From an uncultured Lachnoclostridium sp. (GTDB taxonomy: Bacteria; Bacillota; Clostridia; Lachnospirales; Lachnospiraceae): a DNA stretch of 41,508 nt. The position numbers and the translations under genes were made by a program. The stretch covers positions 1-41,508 of the forward strand of contig CALWDO010000025.1 in the NCBI GenBank assembly GCA_944376715.1. Reading direction: 5' to 3'. The notes under the pieces are model-generated. The model ran no database searches and had not been told where the DNA came from. It saw only the letters and a list, made by a program, of their open reading frames with translations. Of this stretch, positions 3,645-23,628 are shown piece after piece; the stretch's first letter is position 1, and the number at the start of each line of letters is the position of its first letter.

Positions 3645-3694
3645 TACCAGGGGCAAAAGGTTGTTTGCTCCAGCAACAATATTATAGGAGAGAA

Positions 3695-8993: not shown

Positions 8994-9006
8994 TCATTTC
9001 AAAAGA

Positions 9007-9042
9007 GGGTTTCTGATTTGAAAAAGACAGAAGTCCTTTTTT
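9007..9042 (+). terminator. Rho-independent terminator of the MBOAT-SGNH operon
   Basis: A nine-pair stem (GGGTTTCTG with CAGAAGTCC, two G-U pairs) is followed by six T at 9037-9042. Confidence 0.75.
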
Positions 9043-9046
9043 GTTC

Positions 9047-9073
9047 AATAAAACTAACTTAAAATAGTTTATT
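9047..9073. promoter_or_regulatory. Inverted repeat, candidate operator for the ROK repressor
   Basis: Arms AATAAAACTA (9047-9056) and TAGTTTATT (9065-9073) match each other apart from one extra A, with an 8-base spacer. XylR-type ROK operators also contain AAACTA-like arms, so binding by the regulator encoded at 11103 is plausible. This is inference. A second overlapping pairing (ACTTAA/TTAAGT) exists. Confidence 0.35.
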
Positions 9074-9154
9074 AAGTATATATAAAAAAACAGAATATAT
9101 TATATAATTTCAAAGAATAAACTTAAAATTAAAAAGATAAATAACCCAGATCTT

Positions 9155-9172
9155 CTTGAAAAACGTTTCGAG
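9155..9172. promoter_or_regulatory. Imperfect palindrome, candidate operator or cre-like site
   Basis: CTTGAAA (9155-9161) and TTTCGAG (9166-9172) form an inverted repeat with one mismatch around AACG. It resembles a catabolite-control (cre) element but the spacing is off by one base, so the assignment stays open. It lies about 130 bases upstream of the promoter. Confidence 0.3.
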
Positions 9173-9302
9173 AATATGATAACACGTATTATTAAATGTG
9201 CATAATTACAGATTTGCTTACAGGACTTCAAAAAGGAAGGTGCAAAATTAATAAAATATGTGAAATATAAAAAATATTTAAAAGAAAAATGCACAAAAAA
9301 TG

Positions 9303-9331
9303 TTGACAAGTAAGCAATACAATGATATAGT
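9303..9331 (+). promoter_or_regulatory. Sigma-A promoter of the sugar/polyol operon
   Basis: A perfect TTGACA (9303-9308) and TATAGT (9326-9331) are 17 bases apart, about 57 bases before the kinase start codon. Confidence 0.8.
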
Positions 9332-9387
9332 CATCTTAATTAATAAAGTTAAGAAACAAACAGAAAATTATAAACGGAGTGAAGAAT

Positions 9388-11076
9388 ATGGAAAAAAACT
9401 ATGTGATGGGAATAGATTTTGGCAGCGACTCCGTGAGAGCTGTAATTGTGGATGTAAAAGACGGAAGGACTGTGGGCAGCGCTACTTGTGAGTATGAGCG
9501 CTGGATGAAGCAGATGTACTGTGATGCGTCGAAAAATATGTTTCGGCAACATCCACTTGACTATCTGGAAGCTTTTGGAAAATGTGTAAAAGGAGCTTTG
9601 GATGCGGCCGGAGAAAACGCTGGGGAATACGTCAGGGGAATAGGCGTTGATACGACAGGTTCGACTCCTTGCCCGGTAGACAAAAACGGAACTCCGCTGG
9701 CGTTGCTTCCTGAATTTTCAGAAAATCCGAATGCAATGTTTTATCTTTGGAAAGATCATACCGCTATAGAAGAGGCAAAAGAAATTAACAAAATATTCTC
9801 AGATTTTAATGGCGAGGACTATCTGAGATTCCAGGGTACATATGCTTCTGAATGGTGGTGGGCGAAGATTCTCCATGGTTCCAGAGCGGATGAAAGAGTA
9901 AAGGAAGCTGCATATTCATGGGTGGAGCACTGTGACTGGATTCCAGCATTGCTGACAGGGAATACCAATCCGGATTCTATGTACCGCTGCAGTTGTGCGG
10001 CTGGTCATAAAGCATTGTGGCACAGCGATTTTGGGGGATTGCCATCTCGGGAATGTCTGGAGAAAGTAGACCCGTATTTGGCAATGATAGCGAGACATTA
10101 CGCGAAAGCTCCACAAGTTGCCACGACAAAGGTGGGAATAATTACAAAAGAGTGGGCACAGCGGCTGGGATTAAATGAAAATGTGGTAATCGGCGGAAGC
10201 TCGCTGGATGCTCATGCAGGGGCTGTAGGGGCAGGGATTAAACCGAAAGTCCTGGTAAAAGTAATTGGGACGTCGACGGTGGATATGCTGGTACAAAAGA
10301 GAGAAAATCTTCGGGGCAGAGATTTGCATGATTCATGTGGACAGGCAGAAGATTCTATTCTTCCTGGATATGTGGGAATGGAAGCAAGCCAGGCAGCGTT
10401 TGGGGATTTGTGTTCTTGGTTCCGTACCATATTAATGTGGCCTGTGCGGAATATTATTGGTGAATCAGATCTGCTTACTGATGTTCAAAAAGAGAAACTG
10501 ATTCAGATGACAAAGGAAAAGATGCTTGACCGGATCACGGAGGAAGCGGAAAAGATTGATTATGATCCGAATTTGACGGTTCTAGATTGGTTTAACGGAC
10601 GAAGATATCCTATGATCAATGAAACAGTAAAAGGAGGAATGTATGGACTGACACTGGGAACGAATGCTCCAGAATTGTTTAAAGGTATTTTATTCGCGGC
10701 TGTATTTGGTTCAAGACGTATCTTTGATTCTTTTGTTTCCAGAGGAATAGAAATAGATGAAATTATAACGGTAGGAGGGATTTCCCAAAAATCCCCATTG
10801 ATTATGCAGATGCTTGCAGATGCAATGAAGAGACCGATTAAAGTATCAAATCTTCCGCAGGCATGTGCACAGGGCGCAGCAATGTATGCGGCAGTTGCGG
10901 CTGGATTTTATGATGACCTGGAAGAAGCACAGGCATATATGAATGTCGGATTTAGAAAAATATATATGCCGAATGAAAGTAATTTTGAAAAGTATGACAG
11001 GCTTTACAAGCAATATCTGAGGGTGGGGCGTCATTTTGAAGAGATTCAGACGGAACGAAATCAGGAAAGAATGTAA
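9388..11076 (+). CDS. FGGY carbohydrate kinase, ribulokinase (AraB) type
   Basis: The 562-residue protein phosphorylates a ketopentose or related sugar with ATP. The N-terminal FGGY lobe reads GIDFGSDSVRAV, as in AraB. Other AraB-like blocks are NPNAMFYLWKDHTA, ASEWWWAKILH, EHCDWIPALLTG and the catalytic-Asp region SSLDAHAGAVGAG. The length matches E. coli AraB (566). ATG 9388 has GGAG 8 bases upstream; a GTG at 9379 overlaps that site. It is the first gene of the operon and leads to the repressor after 26 bases. No araA or araD is present, so the substrate may be a ketose made by the SDR enzyme encoded downstream rather than L-ribulose from arabinose. Confidence 0.85.
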   Translation: MEKNYVMGIDFGSDSVRAVIVDVKDGRTVGSATCEYERWMKQMYCDASKNMFRQHPLDYLEAFGKCVKGALDAAGENAGEYVRGIGVDTTGSTPCPVDKNGTPLALLPEFSENPNAMFYLWKDHTAIEEAKEINKIFSDFNGEDYLRFQGTYASEWWWAKILHGSRADERVKEAAYSWVEHCDWIPALLTGNTNPDSMYRCSCAAGHKALWHSDFGGLPSRECLEKVDPYLAMIARHYAKAPQVATTKVGIITKEWAQRLGLNENVVIGGSSLDAHAGAVGAGIKPKVLVKVIGTSTVDMLVQKRENLRGRDLHDSCGQAEDSILPGYVGMEASQAAFGDLCSWFRTILMWPVRNIIGESDLLTDVQKEKLIQMTKEKMLDRITEEAEKIDYDPNLTVLDWFNGRRYPMINETVKGGMYGLTLGTNAPELFKGILFAAVFGSRRIFDSFVSRGIEIDEIITVGGISQKSPLIMQMLADAMKRPIKVSNLPQACAQGAAMYAAVAAGFYDDLEEAQAYMNVGFRKIYMPNESNFEKYDRLYKQYLRVGRHFEEIQTERNQERM

Positions 11077-11102
11077 ATTGTAAATTAATTAAGGAGTACA
11101 TA

Positions 11103-12368
11103 ATGCAGAAGGTGGATAAAAGCATTGTTAATATGGCAAATAAAGTAAATATACTTCGTATTTTGTGGGAGAGCCAGTGTATTTACCGGGCCGAAATTGC
11201 CAGAATGACAGGGCTTTCTCAGCCGACTGTTATGAAAATTGTAGACGAATTTATAGACCGCGGATTAGTAAACATCAGTGGAAAAGGAGTTTCAAGCGGC
11301 GGAAAACCGCCCTTAATGCTCGAGTTTAAGTGGGATGCTTATTACATTATCGGAGTAGATATTAACGAGTATCGGATCGAGATCGTTCTGATGGATTTGG
11401 GATTTCATGTGGTTGATACGCGTATTCAGGATAATCGTGAAATCGATACATCGGAAACTATTTTAAAGCGTCTGGTAGAAGAAATTATGTTTCTTCTCGG
11501 TAATCATCCTGATAAAAAAGAGCGGATTTTAGGAATCGGGGTAGGAATTCCTGGAATTGTAGATGCCCAGCGGGGAGTCGTCGTTAATTCAACAGAACTG
11601 AACTGGAAAGATGTCAAGGTAAAAGAATATCTTCTGCAGTATTTCGAAGGGAAGATTACAATCGAGGACAGTACACGTGCGCTGGCTCTTGAAGAAAAAA
11701 TACTTGGCCGTGGACGGAATGTAAAAAATTTTTTGTGTCTATCTTTGGGATCCAGCATAGGGTCTGCGCTGGTAATGAACGGAGAATTATGTTATGGCAG
11801 TTCGAGCGCTTCTGGTCAGATAGGCCATATGGCGGTTGAAAGACGGGGTGAAGCATGTTCGTGCGGTAACTATGGATGCTTGGATCTATACGCTTCCGGA
11901 CGAGCGATTCAGTTAGAAGCCAAAAAAATTGTGAGGGAGCATGCGGAATCGCAAATTACAGACCTTGTATATGGGGATCCTGAAAAAGTGGATTTAAATA
12001 TTGTATTTGAAGCGGCAATGGGAAATGACAGCGACGCTCTTGCAATTTTGGAAAAAGCGGCAGATTATCTGGCTATGGCTGTGGCAGGAATTATCAACCT
12101 TACAGATCCGGAATTGATTATATGTGAAGGGAAAATATGCAGAGAATGCGATATTTTTATGAAGATGTTCAAAAAGTATATACGCCGCAGAAGGATGCGT
12201 TATGTGGGAAGGGAAGTTGAAATTATCATATCTGATCCGAAAAGTTATATGAGTTCTTTTGGGTCAGCTTCCTTTATCCTTGAACGGTTTATTCAGGCCG
12301 GAGGGGAAGTAAAAGAATTACTTCGTATAAAAAACACGGAGCATGAACATATAATTTATGTAAGTTGA
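11103..12368 (+). CDS. ROK-family transcriptional repressor
   Basis: The 421-residue protein has an N-terminal winged helix-turn-helix (residues 15-60, with RAEIARMTGLSQPTVMKIVDE) fused to a ROK sugar-kinase-like domain. The zinc motif is complete: GHMAVERRGEACSCGNYGCLD, ligands H242, C252, C254 and C259. Such proteins (XylR, NagC type) bind DNA until an inducer sugar binds the ROK domain. AGGAG precedes the ATG by 7 bases. Position inside the operon predicts autoregulation and control of the kinase, dehydrogenase and importer genes; a candidate operator lies at 9047-9073. Its inducer is probably the transported sugar. Confidence 0.9.
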   Translation: MQKVDKSIVNMANKVNILRILWESQCIYRAEIARMTGLSQPTVMKIVDEFIDRGLVNISGKGVSSGGKPPLMLEFKWDAYYIIGVDINEYRIEIVLMDLGFHVVDTRIQDNREIDTSETILKRLVEEIMFLLGNHPDKKERILGIGVGIPGIVDAQRGVVVNSTELNWKDVKVKEYLLQYFEGKITIEDSTRALALEEKILGRGRNVKNFLCLSLGSSIGSALVMNGELCYGSSSASGQIGHMAVERRGEACSCGNYGCLDLYASGRAIQLEAKKIVREHAESQITDLVYGDPEKVDLNIVFEAAMGNDSDALAILEKAADYLAMAVAGIINLTDPELIICEGKICRECDIFMKMFKKYIRRRRMRYVGREVEIIISDPKSYMSSFGSASFILERFIQAGGEVKELLRIKNTEHEHIIYVS

Positions 12369-12382
12369 ATAGGAGGACAGCT

Positions 12383-12865
12383 ATGAGAACAATTAAAGCC
12401 AAACCGATTACAGCCGGGAATTTTGCATGTTATGGAAATTTTTTCAGCATTTTAGAGCCATCTGGAAGCGCACTTGGAAATTTTTATAATGATAAAGTGC
12501 TGTTGCCGGTTTCAGGTAACATGCCAGTTGCATTTTCCTCACTTGTGCTGGACAAGCCGGAGAAAATGATCGTCAGTGAGGTTGAATATCATAATTCGAC
12601 CGGTGAGGGAATGCTTCCTCTGGATGATGATGTAGTGTTGCATGTGGCACCGCCCAGCAATGAAGCGGTTCCAGAACTTACAGAGGCATTCATTGTACCA
12701 AAAGGAACAATGGTTAAGATTAATACCGGAGTGTGGCATATGGGCGTTATGCCGATTCATAAGGAAAAAGTACACGTTTTGATTGTGCTTCCGGAGAGGA
12801 TCTATAAAAATGACTGTTTCGTTGTAAAATATTCGGAAGAAGATCAGATTGAAATTACGTTATAA
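12383..12865 (+). CDS. Ureidoglycolate lyase (AllA)-like cupin protein
   Basis: The 160-residue protein resembles the AllA family: the start KAKPITAGNFACYGNFF, the middle AFIVPKGTMVKINTGVWHMGVMPI and the end VLIVLPERIYKNDC correspond to family blocks that form a cupin-type barrel with the His of the VWH segment. AllA splits ureidoglycolate in allantoin breakdown, but no allantoin gene is nearby. Here it sits between the repressor and the dehydrogenase genes, so a role on a sugar acid, lactone or keto-sugar is more likely. AGGAGG lies 6 bases before ATG 12383. The family call rests on recalled motifs and needs a profile search. Confidence 0.6.
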   Translation: MRTIKAKPITAGNFACYGNFFSILEPSGSALGNFYNDKVLLPVSGNMPVAFSSLVLDKPEKMIVSEVEYHNSTGEGMLPLDDDVVLHVAPPSNEAVPELTEAFIVPKGTMVKINTGVWHMGVMPIHKEKVHVLIVLPERIYKNDCFVVKYSEEDQIEITL

Positions 12866-12899
12866 AGCGGTAAACGCTAAGAATTAGGAGGATTAAAAA

Positions 12900-13679
12900 A
12901 TGACTGATGTAAAGGAATTATTTTCTCTAAAGGACCGTGTTGCAATCGTTACGGGAGGCGGTCAAGGACTCGGAAAATCTATGGCAATCGCCCTGGCACA
13001 GGCAGGAGCAGATATTGTCATTGCTGCCAGAAGAATTACAACCGCATTGGAGACACAAAAAATTATTGAAGGTCTTGGTGTAAAATGCACAGTAATTAAA
13101 GGCGATATGCGTGTAGAAGAAGATGTAAAAAATATGGTTGATCAGGTAATGAAGGAGTATGGAAAGATTGATATTCTCTTCAATAACGCAGGAACCTGGA
13201 GAGGCGATGATGCTGAAAAGGTGACTACAGAGGATTGGAAAGAAGTTATTGATGTCAATCTGACAGGCCCGTTTATTGTTTCCCGTGAAGTAGGTAAAGT
13301 TATGCTGAAGCAGGGAAAGGGCAGCATTGTCAATATAGCGTCTATGTCTGGAATGATTGTAAATACGCCGCAGAATCAGTGTGCGTATAATGCGTCTAAA
13401 GGCGGATTGATTATGTTGACTAAATCAATGGCGACTGAGTGGGCAACCCGAGGCGTACGAGTAAACGCCCTGTGCCCTGGATATATGAGAACGGAAATGA
13501 GCGAAGACAGGTATCAGAGAAAAGATCCTGCAATTGACAGATGGTTTTCCATGACACCGATGGGAAGATCCGGAGTTCCTGACGAGTTAATGGGAATCGC
13601 TGTTTATCTGGCATCCGATGCATCCAGTTTCGTTACAGGAGCGGCTTACTTAGTTGACGGCGGTTATACTGCTTGGTAG
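12900..13679 (+). CDS. SDR-family oxidoreductase, sugar/polyol dehydrogenase-like
   Basis: The 259-residue protein is a classical short-chain dehydrogenase. The nucleotide-binding motif TGGGQGLG is at residues 18-25, NNAG is near 95-98, the catalytic Ser is in NIASMSG (148 or 150), and Tyr163/Lys167 form YNASK. After TGGGQGLG the segment IAARR suggests an NADP-tolerant pocket. The closest named relatives by pattern are gluconate 5-dehydrogenase and polyol dehydrogenases. In this operon it probably oxidises the imported polyol to a ketose, or reduces a keto-sugar, for the kinase. AGGAGG sits 8 bases before the ATG. The binding-protein gene follows 61 bases later. Confidence 0.85.
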   Translation: MTDVKELFSLKDRVAIVTGGGQGLGKSMAIALAQAGADIVIAARRITTALETQKIIEGLGVKCTVIKGDMRVEEDVKNMVDQVMKEYGKIDILFNNAGTWRGDDAEKVTTEDWKEVIDVNLTGPFIVSREVGKVMLKQGKGSIVNIASMSGMIVNTPQNQCAYNASKGGLIMLTKSMATEWATRGVRVNALCPGYMRTEMSEDRYQRKDPAIDRWFSMTPMGRSGVPDELMGIAVYLASDASSFVTGAAYLVDGGYTAW

Positions 13680-13740
13680 AAAAGGGGTTAGAGGTTTGAA
13701 GGAAAAATGACCCGAAAAATTAACAAATGGAGGTATTATC

Positions 13741-14772
13741 ATGAGAAAGAAACTGTTGGCTTTTGTGGGTGTCGCGATAATGAGTGCTATGGTAATGACG
13801 GGCTGTTCCAGCGGAAGCAGCACAACGGAAGACACTGCAACTGATGCTGCAACAACTGAAGAAACAGCGGATACTGGAACTGAAGAAACAGCAGACACAG
13901 CTGAAACAACGGATACAGCTGAAGAAACGGAAAGTACCGGTGAAGGCATTAAGATTGGCGTTTCTGTCGCAGACCAGTCCAATGTGTTTTATGTTGATAT
14001 TATAGACGGTATGGAATCCGCAGTTAAAGACGGTGATGAACTGATTATTGTGGATGCTGGATTTGATGCCGCAAAACAGCTGAATGATATTGATGATATG
14101 ATTCAGCAGGGTGTCAGCGCAATGCTGATTGACGCAGTGGATTCTAATGCAATCGCACCTGCTATTGAAGCATGCAAAGCAGCTAATATTCCGGTAATCG
14201 CTTATAATAGCCCGGTGAACCAGGAAGTGGACTGCACCGTTGTAACAGATAACTTCCTTGCAGGACAGTTGATTGGTAAAGCGCTTGGCGAAGCTGTCGG
14301 AGGGAAGGGTGAAGTCGCAATGTGTACCTACAATGTGGCTGAAGTTTGCCTTGACCGTGCAAATGGATTCAAAGATGCACTTTCTGCGTATCCAGACATC
14401 GAGATCGTAGTAGAACAGGAAGTTCAGTCCGGAACAGATACAGCTCTTCCGGTTGCGGAAAACATTATCCAGGCATATCCGGATATTGTAGGTATGTTTG
14501 CTCAGAATGACCCGACCGCCCTTGGATGTGTTGCGGCTGCTGAGAGTGCAAACAAACTGGATCAGATCAAGATCGTAGGCGTTGACGGATCTGATGATGG
14601 TAAGGCTGCAGTGGCAGAAGGCAAAATGCTTGCAACTGCTGCCCAGGATCCGGTGACGATTGGCTCTACCGCTATTGAATCAACTTACAAAGTTATTGCA
14701 GGCGAGTCAGTTGAAAAAGAAATTCTTATCCCGTCTTATCTGATAGACGCAAGCAATGTTGCAGAAGAATAA
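13741..14772 (+). CDS. Sugar ABC transporter substrate-binding lipoprotein (RbsB type)
   Basis: The 343-residue protein starts with a lipoprotein signal peptide ending in VMTGC (lipidated Cys at residue 22). A low-complexity Thr/Glu/Asp/Ala linker (about 28-60) follows, made of repeated short units, then the type I periplasmic-binding fold typical of ribose and galactose binders (IKIGVSVADQSNVFYVDIIDGME, then IDAVDSN, AQNDPTALG, VGVDGSDDG). It captures the substrate at the outer membrane face of the cell membrane and hands it to the permease. GGAGG lies upstream of the ATG. A perfect hairpin sits between this gene and the ATPase gene, perhaps raising the level of this protein over the membrane parts. 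Confidence 0.93.
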   Translation: MRKKLLAFVGVAIMSAMVMTGCSSGSSTTEDTATDAATTEETADTGTEETADTAETTDTAEETESTGEGIKIGVSVADQSNVFYVDIIDGMESAVKDGDELIIVDAGFDAAKQLNDIDDMIQQGVSAMLIDAVDSNAIAPAIEACKAANIPVIAYNSPVNQEVDCTVVTDNFLAGQLIGKALGEAVGGKGEVAMCTYNVAEVCLDRANGFKDALSAYPDIEIVVEQEVQSGTDTALPVAENIIQAYPDIVGMFAQNDPTALGCVAAAESANKLDQIKIVGVDGSDDGKAAVAEGKMLATAAQDPVTIGSTAIESTYKVIAGESVEKEILIPSYLIDASNVAEE

Positions 14773-14834
14773 GTGAAGTTAACATAACAAAAATAGGGTG
14801 AATAGTCGGACAACGATGCCTGTTCACCGGAGAA

Positions 14835-14870
14835 ATATCACACGTGGGAATAAAATCCCACGTGTGATGT
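14835..14870 (+). promoter_or_regulatory. Perfect intercistronic hairpin between binding protein and ATPase genes
   Basis: Thirteen uninterrupted pairs (ATCACACGTGGGA with TCCCACGTGTGAT) plus two more outer pairs close a six-base loop. No T run follows, so it is probably not a terminator; it may protect the upstream mRNA from 3' decay. Confidence 0.7.
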
Positions 14871-14895
14871 ATTCATGAATCAATGGAGGTTAGGA

Positions 14896-16422
14896 ATGGA
14901 TGAAAAATATTATTTAGAGATGCTTGATATTAACAAGACATTCCCCGGTGCAAAGGTGCTTAACCATATTGATTTTAAGATTAAATTAGGTGAAGTACAG
15001 GCGTTGATGGGTGAAAATGGTGCGGGCAAATCAACGTTAATGAAGATTCTGGGGGGGATTTACCAGAAGGATAAGGATTCCGGGAAAATTCTTGTAGAGG
15101 GAAAAGAAGTAGAAATCAACACGGTGGACGATGCCCAGAAATATGGCATCAGTATAATTCATCAGGAGATCAGCCTGGCAGAAAATATGACCGTATTTGA
15201 TAATATTTTTATGGGTCGTGAGATTGACAGGAAAACAAAGGGATTTTTGAACGATAAAGAAATGATTCGCAGATCACAGGCGATCATAGATGAATTGAAG
15301 GTTGATATTGATGTTCGTCGGAAAGTAGGAGAGTTGAGTATCGCAAAGCAGCAGATGATAGAAATTTGCCGGGCGCTGCTTTCCAATGCAAAGATTATCG
15401 TCATGGATGAGCCGACTTCGTCTTTGACGCAGACAGAAATAGATCAATTATTTGAACAAATTCATAAGTTGAAAGAGTCGGGGATTGCGATTATATACAT
15501 ATCGCATCGTATGGAAGAAATATTTCAGATATCTGATACAATCACAGTGCTGCGCGATGGCCATTTAGTGGGTTCAAAACCTGCCAGTGAACTGGACAAC
15601 CAGAAAATTATTGAAATGATGGTTGGACGTGACCTGAATAAATATATGAAGAACGACGAGTATCTGGAAGGCGGGGAGGTTTGCCTGGAAGTTAGAAATC
15701 TGAATAATAAAAAATTGAAAGATATCAGCTTTATCTTGAAAAAAGGAGAGATTCTTGGATTTGCCGGTCTTGTCGGCGCTGGACGGACAGAAACAGCGAG
15801 GGCTATTTTTGGAATTGATCCGATCAGTTCAGGGAAGATCTTAGTTCATGGTAAAGAAGTAAAAATAAAGAGCGCTTCGGACGCGATTAAAGCAGGTATA
15901 GGCTATGTCCCTGAGAACCGCAAGGAAGAGGGTCTGGTACTGATGAGTTCTATTCGTTCTAATCTCACAATTTCTGTGCTGGAACAGTTTATCAAAGGCT
16001 GTTTTGTGAACAGGAAAAAGGAGAATAGCATTGTGGACGAATATGTAAATAAGCTTTCGATAAAGATGGCTTCTGCTGAACAGCTGGTACAGTATTTGTC
16101 AGGAGGCAATCAGCAGAAAGTTGTCCTATCAAAATGGCTTGCTACCAGGCCGGATATATTGATTTTGGATGAGCCGACCAGAGGAATCGATATCGGAGCA
16201 AAGACCGAAATATATCATCTAATCATGGAAATGGCAAAATCTGGAGTTGCCGTCATACTTATTTCCTCCGAAATGGAAGAAATCATCAATTTGAGCACAA
16301 GAATTATTGTAATGTATGAAGGAAGGATAAAAGCAACTTTAACAGAAGAGGAAACCAGAACGGTTGCTCAGGAAGATATTATGTGGTATGCGTCAGGGAG
16401 GATGAAAGATGAAGCAAAGTAG
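14896..16422 (+). CDS. Sugar ABC transporter ATP-binding protein (RbsA type)
   Basis: The 508-residue protein has two fused ATPase domains, as in RbsA, MglA and XylG. The first has Walker A GENGAGKST at residues 39-47, a degenerate signature LSIAKQQ and Walker B IIVMDEPTSSL. The second has a degenerate Walker A (GLVGAGRTE), an intact signature LSGGNQQK and Walker B ILILDEPTRGID. This pattern of one strong and one weak half is normal for the family. ATG 14896 is chosen because GGAGGT ends 5 bases upstream; an in-frame ATG at 14875 lacks a site. It overlaps the permease gene by 14 bases, so the two are translationally coupled. Confidence 0.94.
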   Translation: MDEKYYLEMLDINKTFPGAKVLNHIDFKIKLGEVQALMGENGAGKSTLMKILGGIYQKDKDSGKILVEGKEVEINTVDDAQKYGISIIHQEISLAENMTVFDNIFMGREIDRKTKGFLNDKEMIRRSQAIIDELKVDIDVRRKVGELSIAKQQMIEICRALLSNAKIIVMDEPTSSLTQTEIDQLFEQIHKLKESGIAIIYISHRMEEIFQISDTITVLRDGHLVGSKPASELDNQKIIEMMVGRDLNKYMKNDEYLEGGEVCLEVRNLNNKKLKDISFILKKGEILGFAGLVGAGRTETARAIFGIDPISSGKILVHGKEVKIKSASDAIKAGIGYVPENRKEEGLVLMSSIRSNLTISVLEQFIKGCFVNRKKENSIVDEYVNKLSIKMASAEQLVQYLSGGNQQKVVLSKWLATRPDILILDEPTRGIDIGAKTEIYHLIMEMAKSGVAVILISSEMEEIINLSTRIIVMYEGRIKATLTEEETRTVAQEDIMWYASGRMKDEAK

Positions 16423-17389
16423 CGTAAAGAAAAATTATTTAATACAGAATCCGCTTATAAGATTTATTCAGAGAAATACGGGAATCTTAATAGGGTTAGT
16501 GGCAATGTTTGTATTTCTTTCCATATTTACAGATTCATTTTTAACAAGTTCTAATATGCTTCAGGTACTTCGCCAGATATGTATCAATGGATTGCTTGCC
16601 TTTGGTATGACGTTTGTATTGATTATCGGCGGTATTGACCTTACAGTTGGCTCTGTAGTGGCTATCAGTGGGGTCACAATTGTAATGATGCTGAATTCAG
16701 GGATTCCCCTTCCGATTGCTTTTATAGTTGCACTACTGTTAGGCGCTTTGGTTGGTGTTGCGAATGGAAGTATAACAGCGCTGACAGGAATGCCGCCTTT
16801 TATTGTAACACTTTCTTTGCAGGGAACGGTACGGGGTGTTGCGTATGTGATTACGGATGGACGTTCGGTATCCTGCGATAATGAATTGTTTAATACGATT
16901 GGAAATGGATATTTTTTAGGAATCCCTATTCCGATTTATATTGTTGCTTTAGTGATGATTGTTATTTCGGTTCTTTTATACTATACTCGTTTTGGACGGA
17001 GAATGTATGCAGTCGGCGGAAATATGACTGCCGCTAAATTTTCAGGAATTCATGTGAAGAAAATTACGATTCAGGTCTACGTACTGTCTGGTATACTTTC
17101 CGCACTTGCAGGAATTATTCTTGCGTCACGTATGTATTCCGGACAGCCTGCATCTGGTCAGGCTTATGAATCTGACGCAATCGCGGCGGCGGTGCTTGGA
17201 GGGACAAGTTTCAACGGCGGTATCGGAACAGTTGGAGGCACTTTAATAGGCGCTCTTGTGATTGGTTTCCTCTCAAATGGATTGAATCTGCTTCATATTT
17301 CGTCTTATGTACAGCAGATTATTAAAGGATTGGTTATCATAGCTGCAGTAGGAATCGATATTCTGAAAAACAGGAAGAAAGTTGCCTGA
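16409..17389 (+). CDS. Sugar ABC transporter permease (RbsC type)
   Basis: The 326-residue protein is highly hydrophobic with about eight to ten membrane segments. It carries the RbsC-family blocks GMTFVLIIGGIDLTVGSV and AAAVLGGTSFNGGIGTVGGTLIGA, the latter being the site that contacts the ATPase. It forms the channel of the ribose/galactose-type importer with the two preceding genes. The start overlaps the ATPase gene and no further gene of the operon follows; two hairpins lie downstream. Confidence 0.93.
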   Translation: MKQSSVKKNYLIQNPLIRFIQRNTGILIGLVAMFVFLSIFTDSFLTSSNMLQVLRQICINGLLAFGMTFVLIIGGIDLTVGSVVAISGVTIVMMLNSGIPLPIAFIVALLLGALVGVANGSITALTGMPPFIVTLSLQGTVRGVAYVITDGRSVSCDNELFNTIGNGYFLGIPIPIYIVALVMIVISVLLYYTRFGRRMYAVGGNMTAAKFSGIHVKKITIQVYVLSGILSALAGIILASRMYSGQPASGQAYESDAIAAAVLGGTSFNGGIGTVGGTLIGALVIGFLSNGLNLLHISSYVQQIIKGLVIIAAVGIDILKNRKKVA

Positions 17390-17421
17390 CTATAGAAGCC
17401 AGTTTGGATGTATATTTTGAG

Positions 17422-17500
17422 GGAACTGTCAGGAGACGGATAGTTCCGAACCAGGAGGCTGTTGCGAAATAGATGGTTCATCTATGGCGCAATGGCCTCC
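17422..17500 (+). terminator. Two hairpins after the sugar operon, possible terminator
   Basis: The first pairs GGAACT (17422-17427) with AGTTCC (17442-17447). The second, 17454-17500, is a long stem of three paired blocks (GGAGGC/GCCTCC, TTGCG/CGCAA, ATAGATG/CATCTAT) with small internal loops. Only a weak T-rich tail (GTTTGTTTG) follows, so termination efficiency is uncertain. The rest of the gap to 17595 shows no gene. Confidence 0.5.
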
Positions 17501-17595
17501 CAGTTTGTTTGAAAACAGAAAACGGACTCTGAAGGGCTCAAAATTTGTAAACGAACATTCATTGAAATATTTTTACTGATATAGTTTTTTTAATT

Positions 17596-18163: not shown

Positions 18164-18204
18164 TACTATTCAGAATCTGTACGAGAATTAAGCGGGGATT
18201 GATT

Positions 18205-18233
18205 TTGCCCTTTTCTGTGCGTTATAGTAATAT
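18205..18233 (+). promoter_or_regulatory. Probable promoter of the ureohydrolase-like gene
   Basis: TTGCCC (18205-18210) and TAATAT (18228-18233) are 17 bases apart; an alternative is TTGATT (18199-18204) with TATAGT 18 bases on. Confidence 0.4.
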
Positions 18234-18267
18234 ATAATCTTTTGTACCAGGAAGGAGTGTGGACGCG

Positions 18268-19023
18268 TTGGGGAAAAAGCAGAATCTGCTGCTGGATTTT
18301 TCACATACTTATCCGGAAGGAATTGAAAAAGAGGCACAGAACCTGGAGAGAATGGATATGGGCGATATCAGCGGGACAACGATGTATTGCTCCGGAGAGG
18401 CGGAACAGAAGATCCGGGAGAGACTGAAAGATTATGGCCCGGATGGAATCCATTTTCTCGATAACGGGAACTATCATTATGTGACAAAATTTTTCACGGA
18501 AAAGATCAGAATCCCTTTTGCTCTGGTCCTGTTTGACCATCACAGCGATATGCAGCAGCCGCTTCTCTGCGACCTGACAAACTGCGGAAGCTGGGCCGGA
18601 GAACTGCTGCGGGAGGACCCGTATCTGAAACAGTTGATTTTGGTCGGTCCGGACAAGGAGAGCATAAAAAATATTCCGGAGGAGCTGAAGAAAAAAGTAA
18701 TCTGTATCAGTATGCAGGAAATCGAAGAAATGTCCGCGGAAACACAGATAAAGAGGATAGATGTATCTCTTCCTGCCTATATCTCTATTGATAAGGACGT
18801 ACTCGATCATTACAGCGCCAGGACGAACTGGAACCAGGGGAATATGTCTCTTCATACCCTTCAGGCGCTTCTTTCGGAGGTGTTCTCACATCAGACGGTG
18901 ATCGGAGTCGATATCTGCGGAGAATGCAGCAGACAGGAACCCTTGTTGAAGTATGTGGAAGATGAGGAAATCAACCAGGAAACGAACCGGATACTGTATC
19001 GCTTCCTGGCTGATCTGCTGTAA
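18268..19023 (+). CDS. Arginase/agmatinase-fold (ureohydrolase family) protein, substrate unknown
   Basis: The roughly 251-residue protein keeps the binuclear manganese ligands of ureohydrolases in altered form: a His in NGNYHYV, D-x-H-x-D in FDHHSDMQ, and D-x-D in SIDKDVLD. A late Glu lies in VDICGECS. The surrounding sequence is diverged from true arginases and agmatinases, so hydrolysis of a guanidino compound or a related amide is likely but the substrate is open. The best Shine-Dalgarno site AAGGAG (18252-18257) points to a TTG start at 18268; a GTG at 18259 lies directly against that site. It stands alone and converges on the NhaC gene. Confidence 0.7.
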   Translation: MGKKQNLLLDFSHTYPEGIEKEAQNLERMDMGDISGTTMYCSGEAEQKIRERLKDYGPDGIHFLDNGNYHYVTKFFTEKIRIPFALVLFDHHSDMQQPLLCDLTNCGSWAGELLREDPYLKQLILVGPDKESIKNIPEELKKKVICISMQEIEEMSAETQIKRIDVSLPAYISIDKDVLDHYSARTNWNQGNMSLHTLQALLSEVFSHQTVIGVDICGECSRQEPLLKYVEDEEINQETNRILYRFLADLL

Positions 19024-19040
19024 TTGAAATTTCTTTCTTT

Positions 19041-20423
19041 TTAGCTCTTTTTCTCTATTTTGCCGGTGCCGTAGCCGGTGACGATGGCAAAAATCAGGAT
19101 AAAGAGCATACTGATGGAATAGTAATTGACGAAGGGCACCGAAGCCGGAGCCACCGCGAAGGCTTCGCCAAACTGGGCAGACAACTGGGCCGGTATGACG
19201 CAGTGGACGGTCCAGGGAGCCAGGAAGCAGAAGGTACAGCCGGTGCAGTCCAGCAGGTTTGCCCGGCGGTAGCGGTCTACGCCCGCCTTCTCACCGATGT
19301 CGTTGACCAGATCTCCCAGAGCCACGATGGCCACGGCGATAACGCCGGTGATCATGCTGAGCAGGCCGGTGGATATGACGATCGTCGCCTCTGTGCTGCG
19401 TTTACCTTTGGCAAAGCGATTGAGGAGATGTCCCACATCCTCGAAGAGGCCGCTGCATTCCATAACTCCCAGCAGGCCGAAGACCGCGATCAGCATGGCC
19501 ACTGTTCCCATGGTGCCGGTGATGGAATCGATGATCAGCCCGTTTACTGTAAAACCTCCGGGGAAGGACAGCAAGTCGGAGACAGAGTAGATACCGGTCA
19601 CCAGTCCTGCCACGATACCGGCCAGGATGCCGCAGGACAGGGCCGCGATCAGATGCTTGCGCATCAGACAGAGTACGATAATCACTATGGGCACCACCAG
19701 CATCACCAGACTTACCGGATTGACATCTGTTTCGCTTATACTGACCAGATCCAGATCGTCGTTGGAGACCGTTCGGGTAAATATCAGGAAGAGAACCAGC
19801 GCAGCCACGGCGGCCGGGATGGAGTAACGGGTCCGGGTACGCACCACCGTTCCCAGATCCGCGTGCTGGGTGGTGGAAGAGGCGATGGTGGTATCGGAGA
19901 TCGGTCCCAGATTGTCACCGAAGGCGGCGCCGGATACGATGGCTCCGATCATAAACTCCGGCGAGGCTCCCGCCATAACGCCCACAGGAAACAGGATCGG
20001 GATCACCACAAAGTAGGTCCCCACCGAAGTGCCGGTGGCAAACGCCAGCAGGCAGGTCATGATAAAGGTCGCGGCGACGAAGAATTTTCCGGTAAACCCT
20101 GCCGCGACCACATAAGCCGCCACAGTCTGCACCACGCCGCTCGCTGAGATCAGTTTGCCGGAGACTGCCGCCAGTATGACTGCCAGGGCGACCACGCCGA
20201 AGATAGGTTTGCCAAGACCGTAGACGATGGCGTCGCCATAGGCTTTATCGTCTTTGGCAAAGATCACACCGACGATCAGCGCCATGAAAAATGCCACTAC
20301 ATAACCGTTGACGTTGGACTGGCTGACCGCCGCCCAGACGATGATCACCGCCGCCGTCAGAAGCGGTATCAGTTTGCCAAATTTTCCGAAGTAGAAGTCC
20401 ACGCGTTTTTTCGAGTCACTCAT
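19041..20423 (-). CDS. NhaC-family Na+/H+ antiporter-type transporter
   Basis: The 460-residue membrane protein has about eleven to twelve hydrophobic segments and the family block GAAFGDNLGPISDTTIASST, followed by a second repeat half with TGVIAVAIVALGD and CTFCFLAPW. NhaC proteins exchange Na+ and H+. Some relatives have been proposed as amino acid transporters in T-box regulons (YheL for tyrosine, from memory of comparative-genomics work). ATG 20421-20423 is chosen because GGAGGAG sits 8 bases upstream; an ATG at 20456 overlapping the stop of the preceding gene is an alternative that would add 11 residues. It is the second gene of the T-box-controlled unit, about 29 bases after the oxidoreductase. 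Confidence 0.88.
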   Translation of the reverse strand: MSDSKKRVDFYFGKFGKLIPLLTAAVIIVWAAVSQSNVNGYVVAFFMALIVGVIFAKDDKAYGDAIVYGLGKPIFGVVALAVILAAVSGKLISASGVVQTVAAYVVAAGFTGKFFVAATFIMTCLLAFATGTSVGTYFVVIPILFPVGVMAGASPEFMIGAIVSGAAFGDNLGPISDTTIASSTTQHADLGTVVRTRTRYSIPAAVAALVLFLIFTRTVSNDDLDLVSISETDVNPVSLVMLVVPIVIIVLCLMRKHLIAALSCGILAGIVAGLVTGIYSVSDLLSFPGGFTVNGLIIDSITGTMGTVAMLIAVFGLLGVMECSGLFEDVGHLLNRFAKGKRSTEATIVISTGLLSMITGVIAVAIVALGDLVNDIGEKAGVDRYRRANLLDCTGCTFCFLAPWTVHCVIPAQLSAQFGEAFAVAPASVPFVNYYSISMLFILIFAIVTGYGTGKIEKKS

Positions 20424-20452
20424 AATCTTTTCTCCTCCTTTTTTATAATTTT

Positions 20453-23095
20453 TCATTTATACTTTTCTTGATCTATGGTGATCGGCTTCATCTGCAGGGC
20501 CGTGCGGGCGCAGGCAGCCACGCAGGCTGGCTTTTCCCCTGCACGGATCCGGTCGATGCAGCCGTTGCATTTCCGGGCAGTCCCGCCGTCCAGACGGATC
20601 GCTCCGAATGGACAGGCGTCCTTGCAGGCGCCGCAGCCCACACAGTTTTCAGTGTCGCAGGTCACCAGCCCAGTCTCCTCATCCCGCTGGAAACAACCGC
20701 CGGGGCAGGTATCGGCACAGGCCGGATTCTGGCAGTGCCTGCAGGTGTCAAAGCTCCAGAATATTCTGCCGCCGACTTCGTGCCGGGCAACCTGGCAAAG
20801 GCTTTCTTCGCCCTGCTCCGGCCTGCGGCCATTTTTCTCCATACAGGCCACGACGCAGGCCTGGCATCCAACACATAGCTCCGGTTTCCAGAGTATGCTT
20901 CCCATGACCGCAGGATCCGGCGCTTTTATCGGTGCTGTCGGCGTGCGGTCCGGCCGGACTGTCCTTTCGGTATCGCCGCCCGCCTTCTCGACGCGCACTG
21001 GCCGGCTGCGAAAAGCAGGGAAGCCGGAATAGGGATCCACATCCTCGAGGCTGAGGATCGCGTTAGGATCTGCCTCGGCAAATCCATGGGGCACGTATAC
21101 GCATCCCCGGTCTGCCTGTATGGTTACCATGGCTTTCGATTTAATAGAGCCGTTCTCCGTAGAGATCACCAGGTCATCGCCATCCTCCACGCCCAGTTCC
21201 CGGGCGTCCTGGGGATTGATCTGAGCCTCGGGCCAGGGGGTTAAAGCCTTACTGTAGGGTACGCCCCGCAGCCGGGAATGAAGATGGGCCGGCAGCCTGG
21301 GCGAGGAACACATCCGGAAGGGGAAACCTTCCTTTTCCACCGGAGGTATGTATTCAGGCAGAGGCTTAAGCCCCATGTCCCGGTATTTTTCGATGGCCAG
21401 GGAATACAGCTCAAAGCGGCCGCTTTCGGTAGCCAGGCCTTTTTCCAGAAGCGTTCCCGGCACATACTCATCAGAGGGAAGCTGTACCGGACCGCCCGCC
21501 TTCCACAGCTCTTCCAGGGTGACCGGCAGGCGGCGGATCAGATGGCGGTAGCAGGCTTCCGGCCCTGCGGCAAGCAGAGGATCGGCAAGCCCCAGTCTGC
21601 GGGCCAATTCACAGATAATGTCCACGTCGGACCGGGACTCATAGAGCGGTTTGATCACCGGTCTGGTATACCAGATATATCCGCCGCACCAAACCTTCAG
21701 TTCACTGCGCTCCAGGGAACTGCATACCGGAAGGACGTAATCGCAGAGACGGCAGGTATCCGTCATAAACAGTTCTGTGTTGACCAGCAGTTCCGCTTTT
21801 GACATCGCCTTTTTCAGCCGCTCATTGGCCGGTCCGATCCGATAATTCAGTCCGAAACCCATGATCGCGCGGATCGGATACGGTTCGTCTGTCTCCAGCT
21901 GGGGGATCAGTCCATTGGTCTGGGCCTCATCGATAAACTGGTTCCACAGAGGGAACCGCTCGCTGCCTATAGCCGGAGCCATGCGCTCCGGGCGGCATTC
22001 CCGGATAAATCCGTCCTCGTCGATATCCAACCCTGCCCCCTGGTAATTGTAACTGAAAGAGACAGGAATCTGCCCGCCTGGACGATCAAAGCTGCCGGTG
22101 ATGGCCGACAGGGACATGATCGCCCGATAGTTTTGGAACCCGTTCCGGTGATGACCGATGGGAGCCGCACTCTCGCAGATAGACAGCGGGAGATTTTCCC
22201 CGATCATCCGCGCGGCCCGAATTACTTCCGCGGCAGGTACGCCGGTCAGCCGTTCCGTCTCCTCCGGCGTGAAACGGGAGACATACTTCCGATATTCCTC
22301 ATACCCGTAGACGTATCGGTTAATATAATCATCATTAGTCATCCCTTCGCGGATCAGCACATGGGCCAGCCCCAGAGCCAGAGCCCCGTCTGTCCCTGCT
22401 CTTGGGCGCAGATGGATGTCCGCCAGCCGCTCCGACGCAGGCGTGATACGGGGATCCACGATGATTACTTTCATACCTCTTGCTTTTCCCCGTTCCACCG
22501 AATCTGCCGCCAGATCGCGGGAATAGTAGGGATTGAAGGCCCATCCCAGGAAAACGCCGGAACGACCGGTGTCGCTGCGGCACATGATGTTTCCCGTGGT
22601 CACCAGCCAGTTCAGAAAGGTGGAAAACATGCAGTTGCTGGATTCCGAACCGTAATTCGGCGTTCCAAAACTGTTTGCAAGCCGGTGTAAAAACGGGCGG
22701 TACCATTTGGTATAGCCGGAATAGAACATCACTGATTCCGGCCCGTGTCTCTGCCGGATCGCCAGCAGTTTTTCCGTAATCTCTTCAAAAGCCTGATCCC
22801 AGCTGATCGGTTCAAACCGGCCGCCGCCCCGGGGGCCTACCCTTTTTAGCGGCGTCTGCAGACGGTCTTCCCGATAGATATAGCTGCGGTTCATCTGACC
22901 TTTGGTGCAGATCCTGCCGTGACTGGCCGGATGCTCCTTCATTCCCTCGATCCGGACAATCTTCCCGTCTTTCACATAGGCATCCAGACCGCAGTGGAAG
23001 GAAGGGCAGCAGATGTCACAAATCCCGTGGCGGACTTCCGTCTGCTTTTCTGCCTGCGGCTGTCTTTTTGTGTCTTCCATTTCCACGCTGCTCAT
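20453..23095 (-). CDS. Molybdopterin oxidoreductase fused to a four-cluster ferredoxin domain
   Basis: The 880-residue protein belongs to the DMSO reductase superfamily. Residues 20-65 hold an N-terminal Fe-S site (C26, C29 or C30, C35, C63); the pattern CDICCPSFHC departs from the usual CxxCxxxC. The Mo-bis-MGD domain follows, with a probable Mo-ligand Cys155 in ESSNCMFS and a C-terminal pterin-binding domain around 610-700. Residues 741-870 form a polyferredoxin with four Cys groups (CVGCQAC, CRHCQNPAC, CVGCGAC, CNGC...CVAAC), normally a separate B subunit. No twin-arginine or other signal is present, so the enzyme is cytoplasmic, and no membrane anchor subunit is encoded. AGGAGGTG precedes the ATG. 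The substrate is unknown. Confidence 0.88.
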   Translation of the reverse strand: MSSVEMEDTKRQPQAEKQTEVRHGICDICCPSFHCGLDAYVKDGKIVRIEGMKEHPASHGRICTKGQMNRSYIYREDRLQTPLKRVGPRGGGRFEPISWDQAFEEITEKLLAIRQRHGPESVMFYSGYTKWYRPFLHRLANSFGTPNYGSESSNCMFSTFLNWLVTTGNIMCRSDTGRSGVFLGWAFNPYYSRDLAADSVERGKARGMKVIIVDPRITPASERLADIHLRPRAGTDGALALGLAHVLIREGMTNDDYINRYVYGYEEYRKYVSRFTPEETERLTGVPAAEVIRAARMIGENLPLSICESAAPIGHHRNGFQNYRAIMSLSAITGSFDRPGGQIPVSFSYNYQGAGLDIDEDGFIRECRPERMAPAIGSERFPLWNQFIDEAQTNGLIPQLETDEPYPIRAIMGFGLNYRIGPANERLKKAMSKAELLVNTELFMTDTCRLCDYVLPVCSSLERSELKVWCGGYIWYTRPVIKPLYESRSDVDIICELARRLGLADPLLAAGPEACYRHLIRRLPVTLEELWKAGGPVQLPSDEYVPGTLLEKGLATESGRFELYSLAIEKYRDMGLKPLPEYIPPVEKEGFPFRMCSSPRLPAHLHSRLRGVPYSKALTPWPEAQINPQDARELGVEDGDDLVISTENGSIKSKAMVTIQADRGCVYVPHGFAEADPNAILSLEDVDPYSGFPAFRSRPVRVEKAGGDTERTVRPDRTPTAPIKAPDPAVMGSILWKPELCVGCQACVVACMEKNGRRPEQGEESLCQVARHEVGGRIFWSFDTCRHCQNPACADTCPGGCFQRDEETGLVTCDTENCVGCGACKDACPFGAIRLDGGTARKCNGCIDRIRAGEKPACVAACARTALQMKPITIDQEKYK

Positions 23096-23141
23096 GTTTC
23101 ACCTCCTGGCTGTGTCAAAGCTCTGTATATAAAATTAAAAT

Positions 23142-23179
23142 AAAAAAAGCTCTTATCCCCTGTACAGGGACAAAAGCTC
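23142..23179 (-). terminator. T-box transcription terminator
   Basis: On the minus strand GAGCTTTTGTCCCTG pairs with CAGGGGATAAGAGCT (small bulge) and seven T follow. It competes with the antiterminator that includes the T-box core. Confidence 0.85.
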
Positions 23180-23449
23180 ATTCTTCTGCGGTACCACCCT
23201 TATTGCCGCCTCCGGCGGCCTCTCTGTCTGCATACAATCATATGCGCTCTCTGATAACGGGTTGGGACCCCGTCGGCGCCTACTCTCAACCATCTGCCAG
23301 GCCGTGTCAGCCAGACCTGTATCATGCGGATCATTTCGGGCCGCCCTCGCAAGTCCATTCGATATAATCTGTGCTGCCGCTTCTCACCTGCTGCGGCTCT
23401 CTGTATACACCCGAATCCTATCTACTTCTCTTGCTCATCGGTTTAATTT
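23142..23449 (-). ncRNA. T-box leader riboswitch, apparent tryptophan (UGG) specifier
   Basis: The leader is read on the minus strand. Stem I shows base helix CCG/CGG, a K-turn-like ATGA opposite GAGGG, helix GCAAG/CTTGC, the AGTA motif, an AGAGAGCC bulge region and an apical GGTGAGA loop. On the returning strand GAA-TGG-A places the codon TGG at 23355-23357, directly above the lower helix. The T-box core AAGGGTGGTACCGC lies at 23188-23201. Binding of uncharged tRNA would favour the antiterminator and switch on the Mo oxidoreductase and NhaC genes. T-box identity is certain; the specifier is my reading and less sure. Confidence 0.92.
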
Positions 23450-23455
23450 TTCCTC

Positions 23456-23484
23456 ATTTTACAACCGCGATATTTGTTTGTCAA
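23456..23484 (-). promoter_or_regulatory. Sigma-A promoter of the T-box operon
   Basis: On the minus strand a perfect TTGACA (23479-23484) and TAAAAT (23456-23461) are 17 bases apart. It begins 13 bases after the terminator of the upstream tRNA gene. Confidence 0.85.
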
Positions 23485-23496
23485 GTAAAATGACAT

Positions 23497-23529
23497 AAGA
23501 AACCCGCGTAGATCAAAAAACTACGCGGG
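23497..23529 (-). terminator. Terminator of the tRNA-Ser gene
   Basis: A nine-pair perfect stem (CCCGCGTAG with CTACGCGGG) is followed on the minus strand by TTTCTT. Confidence 0.75.
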
Positions 23530-23540
23530 AATGTCCTCAG

Positions 23541-23628
23541 CGGAGACGGTGGGATTCGAACCCACGTGCCGGTTGCCCGACAACTTGATTTCGAGTCAAG
23601 CTCGTTATGGCCACTTCGATACGTCTCC
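23541..23628 (-). tRNA. tRNA-Ser (anticodon CGA)
   Basis: An 88-base cloverleaf: acceptor GGAGACG/CGTCTCC with discriminator G, anticodon stem CTTGA/TCAAG around loop CTCGAAA (anticodon CGA, reads UCG), a long variable arm typical of serine tRNAs, and the T loop GGTTCGAATCC. The 3' CCA is not encoded. Confidence 0.96.

Follow-up and report, generated by a model that had tools for sequence, protein, structure and literature searches.

Leader and specifier

Here, we have analysed a stretch of 41,508 nucleotides from an uncultured Lachnoclostridium sp. (contig CALWDO010000025.1). The whole stretch is called the window, and its genome, of 2.9 Mb in 79 contigs and 88% complete, is called G000. On the minus strand, from 23484 to 19041, the window carries a promoter, a T-box leader, an intrinsic terminator, a gene for a molybdenum (Mo) oxidoreductase and a gene for an NhaC-family transporter, in that order (Table 1). 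The Mo gene starts 51 nt after the terminator, and its stop codon lies 29 nt before the start of the NhaC gene.

Table 1. Features of the T-box unit and its surroundings, in window coordinates
Feature	Position	Strand	Remark
Sigma-70-type promoter, TTGACA-17-TAAAAT	23456..23484	-	11/12 consensus matches
T-box leader, Stem I to antiterminator	23163..23447	-	Rfam RF00230
Specifier codon UGG (Trp)	23355..23357	-	one base (A) before closing helix
T-box core AGGGTGGTACCGCA	23187..23200	-	UGGU bulge at 23193-23196
Intrinsic terminator	23147..23179	-	14 pairs, then T run
Molybdopterin (bis-MGD family) oxidoreductase, 880 aa	20453..23095	-	predicted Cys155 Mo ligand
C-terminal ferredoxin domain (DmsB/NrfC-like) fused to the Mo enzyme	20489..20896	-	residues ~734-869
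NhaC-family transporter, 460 aa	19041..20423	-	PF03553 76.1 bits, cut-off 23
tRNA-Ser(CGA)	23540..23628	-	G014 synteny stops at its 3' end
Segment missing from sister G014 (T-box, Mo, NhaC, arginase-like gene)	18190..23540	.	collinearity comparison

The RF00230 covariance model matched the leader over all 219 model positions with 100.8 bits (E 3e-21), above the gathering score of 93 bits, and this was the only T-box that a scan of the window returned at gathering score. A specifier codon in the Stem I loop and the UGGN core are both present, and the terminator overlaps the antiterminator. The 53-nt terminator region folds with -22.1 kcal/mol (z -6.2), which was equalled by none of 200 shuffles. 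The promoter is the best of seven promoter-like sites in the 5.7 kb scanned, a number little above that in shuffled DNA (mean 3.6, sd 2.1); the remaining six sites have 9 of 12 consensus matches. An earlier note on the window, made from the letters alone, had claimed a textbook promoter, a full T-box leader and the two genes directly downstream with no gene between, all of which was borne out. It had also recognised the core and the terminator, placing the former one base off (23188-23201) and giving the latter as 23142-23179. Between the terminator and the start codon, where a second promoter would have spoken against the note, the sigma-70-type scan found no minus-strand site. A plasmid search with the leader as query gave no match.

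In the Rfam alignment, the specifier loop reads GAA-UGG-A and is followed by the closing helix CUUG. As codon, TBDB gives first choice to the three bases that lie 2-4 nt upstream of where the specifier bulge ends (PMC7778990; this and the other papers cited for background or comparison are represented by excerpts), and by this position rule the specifier is therefore UGG, for tryptophan (Trp). G000 has 11 T-box matches, eight of them, including the window leader, above the cut-off. When the same rule was read by eye on the 10 other leaders, seven agreed with the downstream gene as named by resemblance (Cys L001, Phe L002, Leu L003, Trp L004, Tyr L007, Thr L009 and Ile L011), and the specifiers of L006, L008 and L010 were left unread. 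The Trp paralogue L004 shares the GAAUGGAC motif; downstream of it is a TrpX-like substrate-binding protein of the ATP-binding cassette (ABC) type, for which TrpX was the sole NCBIfam match at E <= 1e-20 (167.9 bits, below the cut-off of 390).

The specifier motif GAATGGACNNNCGAGGGC occurs 59 times in the 299 family genomes searched, spread over 55 of them, G000 included, and the reversed motif, as a control, had no match in the same genomes. Classified by the first downstream open reading frame (ORF) that matched a reference ORF by BLAST, most references being named by resemblance, the genes after the sites were TrpX-like (40), TrpB2 (7), trpE (4), trpC (3), trpD (1) and Mo enzyme (2), and two were unmatched. 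NCBIfam was used to check one TrpB2 and the TrpC of the genus; the references for trpE, trpD and, except for L004, TrpX were read from sequence. In all, 55 of the 59 sites precede genes resembling those for Trp synthesis or uptake, and the two Mo-enzyme sites are the window and G648, a genome of another genus in the same family. As for the unmatched sites, L191 is without a T-box core, and L206 has a T-box (240-516, 72.1 bits) before an unnamed ORF and an ATPase of the energy-coupling factor (ECF) type, by resemblance; its target is perhaps a Trp-specific ECF transporter.

If the specifier was read one base earlier, the codon would be AUG and the leader a methionine T-box, with the Mo enzyme as a methionine sulfoxide reductase and NhaC as a Met-type transporter. 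GAAUGG does hold AUG followed by a purine, and the two tRNA-Met genes examined have discriminator A, the Watson-Crick partner of the UGGU bulge, whereas the tRNA-Trp of G000 carries G (G73). However, the position rule sets UGG as the codon, and U stands opposite G73 in 46% of Trp T-boxes according to the TBDB excerpt (PMC7778990). Among the 40 TrpX leaders, the bulge base is likewise U in 26 and C in 12 (two were not read), and it is U in all four trpE leaders. Moreover, the serine ligand of dimethyl sulfoxide (DMSO) reductase is absent from the Mo enzyme, the aligned residue being cysteine in 25 of 25 Mo proteins. As the 59-site survey points to Trp genes, we rejected the Met reading and consider it highly improbable.

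The RNA element of the window is an ordinary, intact Trp T-box, and its target genes are the unusual part. It is very likely that this T-box controls both the Mo and the NhaC genes.

A second operon in another genus

The operon in G648 (locus L211) has the order Trp T-box, Mo enzyme, NhaC and UbiD-family decarboxylase. Its T-box scores 75.2 bits (E 5e-15), below the gathering score, has the same UGG motif, and lies downstream of a promoter-like site, TTGACA-17-TATCAT. The Mo enzyme, of 831 aa with a C-terminal ferredoxin part, is 39% identical to that of the window over 827 aligned positions, and the NhaC is 53% identical over 432 positions. The UbiD-family protein scores 312.7 bits with TIGR00148 (cut-off 244.85) and 243.7 with VdcC, below its cut-off of 650; aromatic acids are the main substrates of the UbiD family. 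The space between the G648 Mo and NhaC genes contains a nearly perfect 80-nt hairpin (L211 2802-2883); several microRNA families match it with scores under their gathering thresholds, a resemblance probably confined to shape. No other operon with a T-box, a Mo gene and an NhaC gene was found in the family samples (299 genomes in the motif survey and 396 in the Mo search).

A tree of 58 Trp leaders (the 59 sites minus L191) joins the window leader to the four trpE leaders (support 98/87) and places that of G648 among trpD, TrpB2, trpC and two TrpX leaders, in a group of 10 rows (98/92). A single clade for the two Mo leaders was rejected by the approximately unbiased (AU) test (p-AU 0.0007), a result that is strong, not final, as the pair was picked after pairwise identities had been seen and the leaders are short. 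In a tree of 25 Mo proteins, the two enzymes belong to one well-supported group of 11 and are not sisters, and their sisterhood was not rejected (p-AU 0.158). Since the two leaders fall in different Trp T-box groups, Trp control was probably joined to the Mo and NhaC genes twice, or one leader was swapped for a different Trp leader. Under either course, the Trp regulation of the pair looks selected, and its occurrence in a second genus makes a link to an amino acid credible.

The molybdenum enzyme and the transporter

The Mo protein has the Molybdopterin, Molydop_binding and Fe4S4 domains of the DMSO reductase, or bis(molybdopterin guanine dinucleotide) (bis-MGD), superfamily, and its closest solved structure is a thiosulfate reductase chain (2vpw_A). 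The fused ferredoxin domain scores 70.2 bits with Fer4_11 (cut-off 26.2) and 90.4 with TIGR02951, below the cut-off of 214.1. Among the matches listed (25 of 56), the protein stays below the curated cut-off of every NCBIfam family; it scores 278.3 bits against 666.25 for the formate dehydrogenase alpha family TIGR01591, and 165.8 against 1017.55 for bisC_fam.

Alignment to known enzymes predicts Cys155 as the Mo ligand, and the column is cysteine in all 25 Mo proteins (23 places from the family profile search and two from the order search). Serine is the Mo ligand of BisC. It is also that of DMSO reductase, according to an excerpt of PMC11574389. A serine-ligated S- or N-oxide reductase of the BisC/DMSO type was considered and found unsupported, given the cysteine in 25 of 25 and the missed bisC_fam cut-off. 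By eye, the N terminus shows no twin-arginine signal, and the protein is probably cytoplasmic. Because no such signal is visible and an electron-transfer domain is fused, the simplest reading of the sequence is a cytoplasmic two-electron enzyme.

One could imagine that, when Trp is scarce, the enzyme clears an indolic or aromatic compound that is toxic or competes, or acts as an electron sink, and that NhaC exports or exchanges. The UbiD-family protein of G648, from a family with a largely aromatic range, would suit such a role. So would the related gut Mo enzymes that dehydroxylate catechols for respiration, as described in the excerpt of PMC11574389. However, a protein with a fused ferredoxin and no twin-arginine signal visible by eye is unlike the periplasmic respiratory enzymes, and starvation control suits supply more than respiration. 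We regard clearance or an electron sink as unlikely.

The transporter is a member of PF03553 and scores 89.2 bits with the NhaC Na+/H+ antiporter equivalog TIGR00931, below the cut-off of 370. Its closest relatives are in G178 (73%) and G577 (69%), the two of 249 other family genomes with a match at E <= 1e-70; G648 is absent from the matches listed in this 250-genome search, in which the own genome is present. NhaC proteins have been described under lysine riboswitches, with transport unproven (excerpt of PMC11477304).

It is conceivable that NhaC alone is the meaningful target, as a plain Trp importer, and that the Mo gene is a passenger inserted upstream. NhaC transporters under Tyr T-boxes are known (excerpt of PMC2494555), the segment sits in a variable site after tRNA-Ser (see below), and the window and G648 enzymes are not sisters in the Mo protein tree. 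Yet the order of Mo and then NhaC recurs in G648 behind a differently placed Trp leader, and the NhaC genes of G178 and G577 stand without a Mo gene and without a T-box (in 13 and 12 kb; two cases only). A passenger Mo gene is a possible, distinctly less probable, explanation.

At E <= 1e-100 the Mo gene had no match in any of 60 other genomes (16 of the genus, 20 of the family and 24 of the order). With a two-row profile, 19 of 396 other family genomes sampled had a match at 1e-160, and there were three matches among 391 other order genomes sampled at 1e-110. A scan for relatives with six poorly chosen peptide patterns found 23 of 54 stretches to be related, all distantly (21-33% identity). 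For 21 of the 25 Mo proteins, no T-box core was seen in 1.8-6 kb of upstream DNA (L246-L254 being checked by core pattern only), and a core match far upstream in L238 has no other T-box mark. Rfam scans of L235-L244 and L042-L044 found no T-box at gathering score, a threshold that would miss the one of G648 too. No NhaC gene lies within four ORFs of the Mo gene at the 20 loci compared (L042-L044 not included).

The earlier note had expected conservation in relatives. The operon does recur in G648, and the support is thin, as the absence from 60 of 60 other genomes shows. Its molybdopterin oxidoreductase stands as well, to which we add the fused ferredoxin domain, and to its amino-acid link, made without naming an amino acid, the UGG specifier adds Trp.

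The remaining T-box near a Mo gene is in G424, where the core lies 2.25 kb upstream, before a TrpB2 gene. There, one strand (L245 6583-11659) carries a Trp T-box, TrpB2, an SRAP-like gene, a Mo gene (38%) and a ferredoxin gene, and the scan called no minus-strand terminator in the intergenic gaps. This is a weak case for a third Trp-linked Mo enzyme, because a gene intervenes, as does a 118-nt gap in which a hairpin can be seen that has no T run. Other Mo loci have neighbours of their own. In L235-L240 and L242, a flavin adenine dinucleotide (FAD) oxidoreductase gene is present in seven of seven and a separate ferredoxin gene lies beside the Mo gene in six (not L237); some also have PatB, RidA, MmgE/PrpD or arylmalonate-decarboxylase-like genes. 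In G446 (L241 2357-9243), the Mo, FAD and ferredoxin genes are downstream of trpB-trpA-like genes, named by resemblance, with a regulator gene between, and the same locus has a match to PYLIS_1 (pyrrolysine insertion) at 14763-14862.

Genome context

Upstream of the unit are tRNA-Ser(CGA) and an RqcH/NFACT gene. The sister genome G014 (RqcH 95% identical) is collinear up to the tRNA-Ser end (23541) and again from 18189; in the loci compared, L159 and L161, the site 18190-23540 is occupied by other genes in G014, and by different genes again in G006. The module is an insertion at a variable site after tRNA-Ser(CGA). We found no direct repeats at its edges, the single repeat pair lying within the segment. 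The arginase-family gene (PF00491; 18259-19023, plus strand), which converges on NhaC, scores 22.9 bits against an agmatinase cut-off of 174.3. Also missing from the collinear G014 stretch is the window region 8988-17588, with a sugar-type ABC transporter, FGGY and ROK kinases and a short-chain dehydrogenase/reductase. A tryptophan--tRNA ligase (3641-4705, plus strand; TIGR00233 366.9 bits, cut-off 176.75) has no T-box of its own at gathering score.

TrpA is present in 8 of 17 genus genomes (8 of the 16 others) and had no match in G000. The trp genes of G014 as DNA query had no match there either, and a TrpB2 query, which also matches canonical TrpB (E 2e-33), found none in a search without a positive control. 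The left flank of the G014 trp region matches G000 contig C26, where the gene that borders the trp leader in G014 has other genes after it in unbroken sequence. As the right flank was not found there and the trp genes of G006 are in another setting, this speaks for absence from that site, not proven excision. With no TrpA, TrpB/TrpB2 or trp operon detected, the gene content suggests that the cell is probably, though not certainly, a Trp auxotroph. Indole salvage through TrpB or TrpB2 in G000 was considered and is not favoured, the TrpB2 query being negative with the reservations on control and completeness given here.

We considered whether the leader could derive, as a relic, from the trp operon leader of the genus itself and rejected this, since the sequence type differs. 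A T-box of the other type, AAAUGGACCG, is present in each of the six genus trp-locus stretches scanned (L160, L162 and L175-L178), at 65.9-90.9 bits and always below the RF00230 gathering score; a blastn comparison of these stretches with the window had no match at 1e-3. The leader could also be a relic without present role in an operon that was acquired by transfer and whose use is unrelated to Trp. The insertion into a variable site, the Mo gene not being found in 16 of 16 other genus genomes, and the resemblance to trpE leaders, as though taken from a trp operon, would be in keeping with this. Against it, the promoter, specifier, core and terminator are all present, and selection is suggested by the separate Trp leader of G648; we think such a relic quite unlikely.

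Discussion

We propose that the unit, a Trp-specific, transcription-terminating T-box operon, forms a Trp acquisition module, a proposal for and against which we find the arguments in balance. That both the Mo enzyme and NhaC serve Trp acquisition is likewise an even question. That the Mo enzyme carries out a reductive salvage step towards Trp is a tentative suggestion, and we would sooner doubt than assert it.

Several observations weigh against the proposal. A T-box core lies directly upstream in only two of the 25 Mo proteins (the window and G648). Three of the four Mo relatives at 45-48% identity (L235, L236 and L238) adjoin PatB-like genes (the PatB of L235, the only one so tested, has 425.6 bits with NCBIfam, cut-off 340); the three also lie beside FAD oxidoreductase genes, and one of them beside RidA. 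This PatB/RidA neighbourhood fits sulfur amino acids or their oxides better than Trp. The NhaC relatives of G178 and G577 are without a T-box, and that of G178 adjoins a class-V aminotransferase gene (cysteine-desulfurase-like) and a PatB-like gene, both named by resemblance; NhaC therefore need not be Trp-specific. The UGGU bulge would pair with G73 of tRNA-Trp by wobble only, and the 88% complete assembly and the uncontrolled TrpB2 search leave the absence of trp genes uncertain. Perhaps the Trp-controlled operons have switched to another substrate, or perhaps Trp is not handled by the Mo enzyme; the two Trp-controlled Mo operons need not share a substrate.

How an acquisition module could work is suggested by the features computed here, namely the leader, its specifier class, the gene order, the recurrence in a second genus and the undetected trp genes, from which we infer tRNA binding, co-transcription, transport substrate, location and reaction. 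Uncharged tRNA-Trp(CCA) would bind the UGG specifier and the UGGU bulge of the leader; the antiterminator would then form, and the Mo enzyme and NhaC would be produced together. NhaC would bring in Trp, or an indolic or oxidised Trp surrogate. The ferredoxin-fused, putatively Cys-ligated Mo enzyme would perform a two-electron step that yields Trp or a direct precursor, for which reduction or dehydroxylation seems likelier than oxidation. In this way the module could supply Trp to a cell without trp genes of its own. A Trp starvation signal implies supply, that is, transport plus conversion, and direct conversion to Trp is favoured over indole production in G000 because no TrpB was seen. In G648, the UbiD-family protein would suit the decarboxylation of an aromatic acid, indolic or otherwise. 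The full route, in which an oxidised, hydroxylated or carboxylated indole enters through NhaC and is turned by the Mo enzyme (with UbiD in G648) into Trp or a precursor under a tRNA-Trp switch, is more doubtful than the salvage step.

Few RNA signals besides T-boxes reveal which amino acid a gene serves. A Trp T-box on a Mo enzyme, with two leader types, offers a way to test what an uncharacterised branch of Mo reductases does and where Trp-requiring bacteria get their Trp from. Should the Mo enzyme indeed regenerate Trp from indoles that have been damaged or modified by microbes, this would be a new salvage step. Among 5.39 million open-access papers searched, a few of those listed contain both terms (e.g. 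PMC5640608, PMC2700814, PMC4342826), and none is described in its listing as dealing with T-box control of a Mo oxidoreductase; subscription journals and preprints were outside this scope.

The window leader can be compared with the T-box leaders of trpE and trpXYZ operons (TrpX of Streptococcus suis; excerpt of PMC9382623). They have a Trp-type T-box and a terminator in common, and induction is expected at low Trp in both, but the trpE and trpXYZ leaders control Trp synthesis or an ABC transporter whereas the window leader controls a Mo enzyme and NhaC. The Tyr T-box systems (excerpt of PMC2494555) also place the NhaC family under an aromatic amino-acid T-box; in the window, by contrast, the specifier is for Trp and a Mo gene lies between the leader and NhaC. 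With PhsA/PsrA-like thiosulfate or polysulfide reductases (PDB: 2vpw) and formate dehydrogenases, the window enzyme shares the sequence family, the Fe4S4 motif and the aligned cysteine. It differs from them in falling below the curated cut-offs (for the 25 of 56 matches listed), in having no visible twin-arginine signal, and in its fused ferredoxin and amino-acid starvation control. The gut catechol dehydroxylases, as far as the excerpt of PMC11574389 describes them, likewise belong to the bis-MGD family and have an Fe-S partner, and aromatic substrates are possible for both. This likeness is one of description, not of sequence, and the catechol dehydroxylases of Eggerthella and Gordonibacter are regulated by their substrates.

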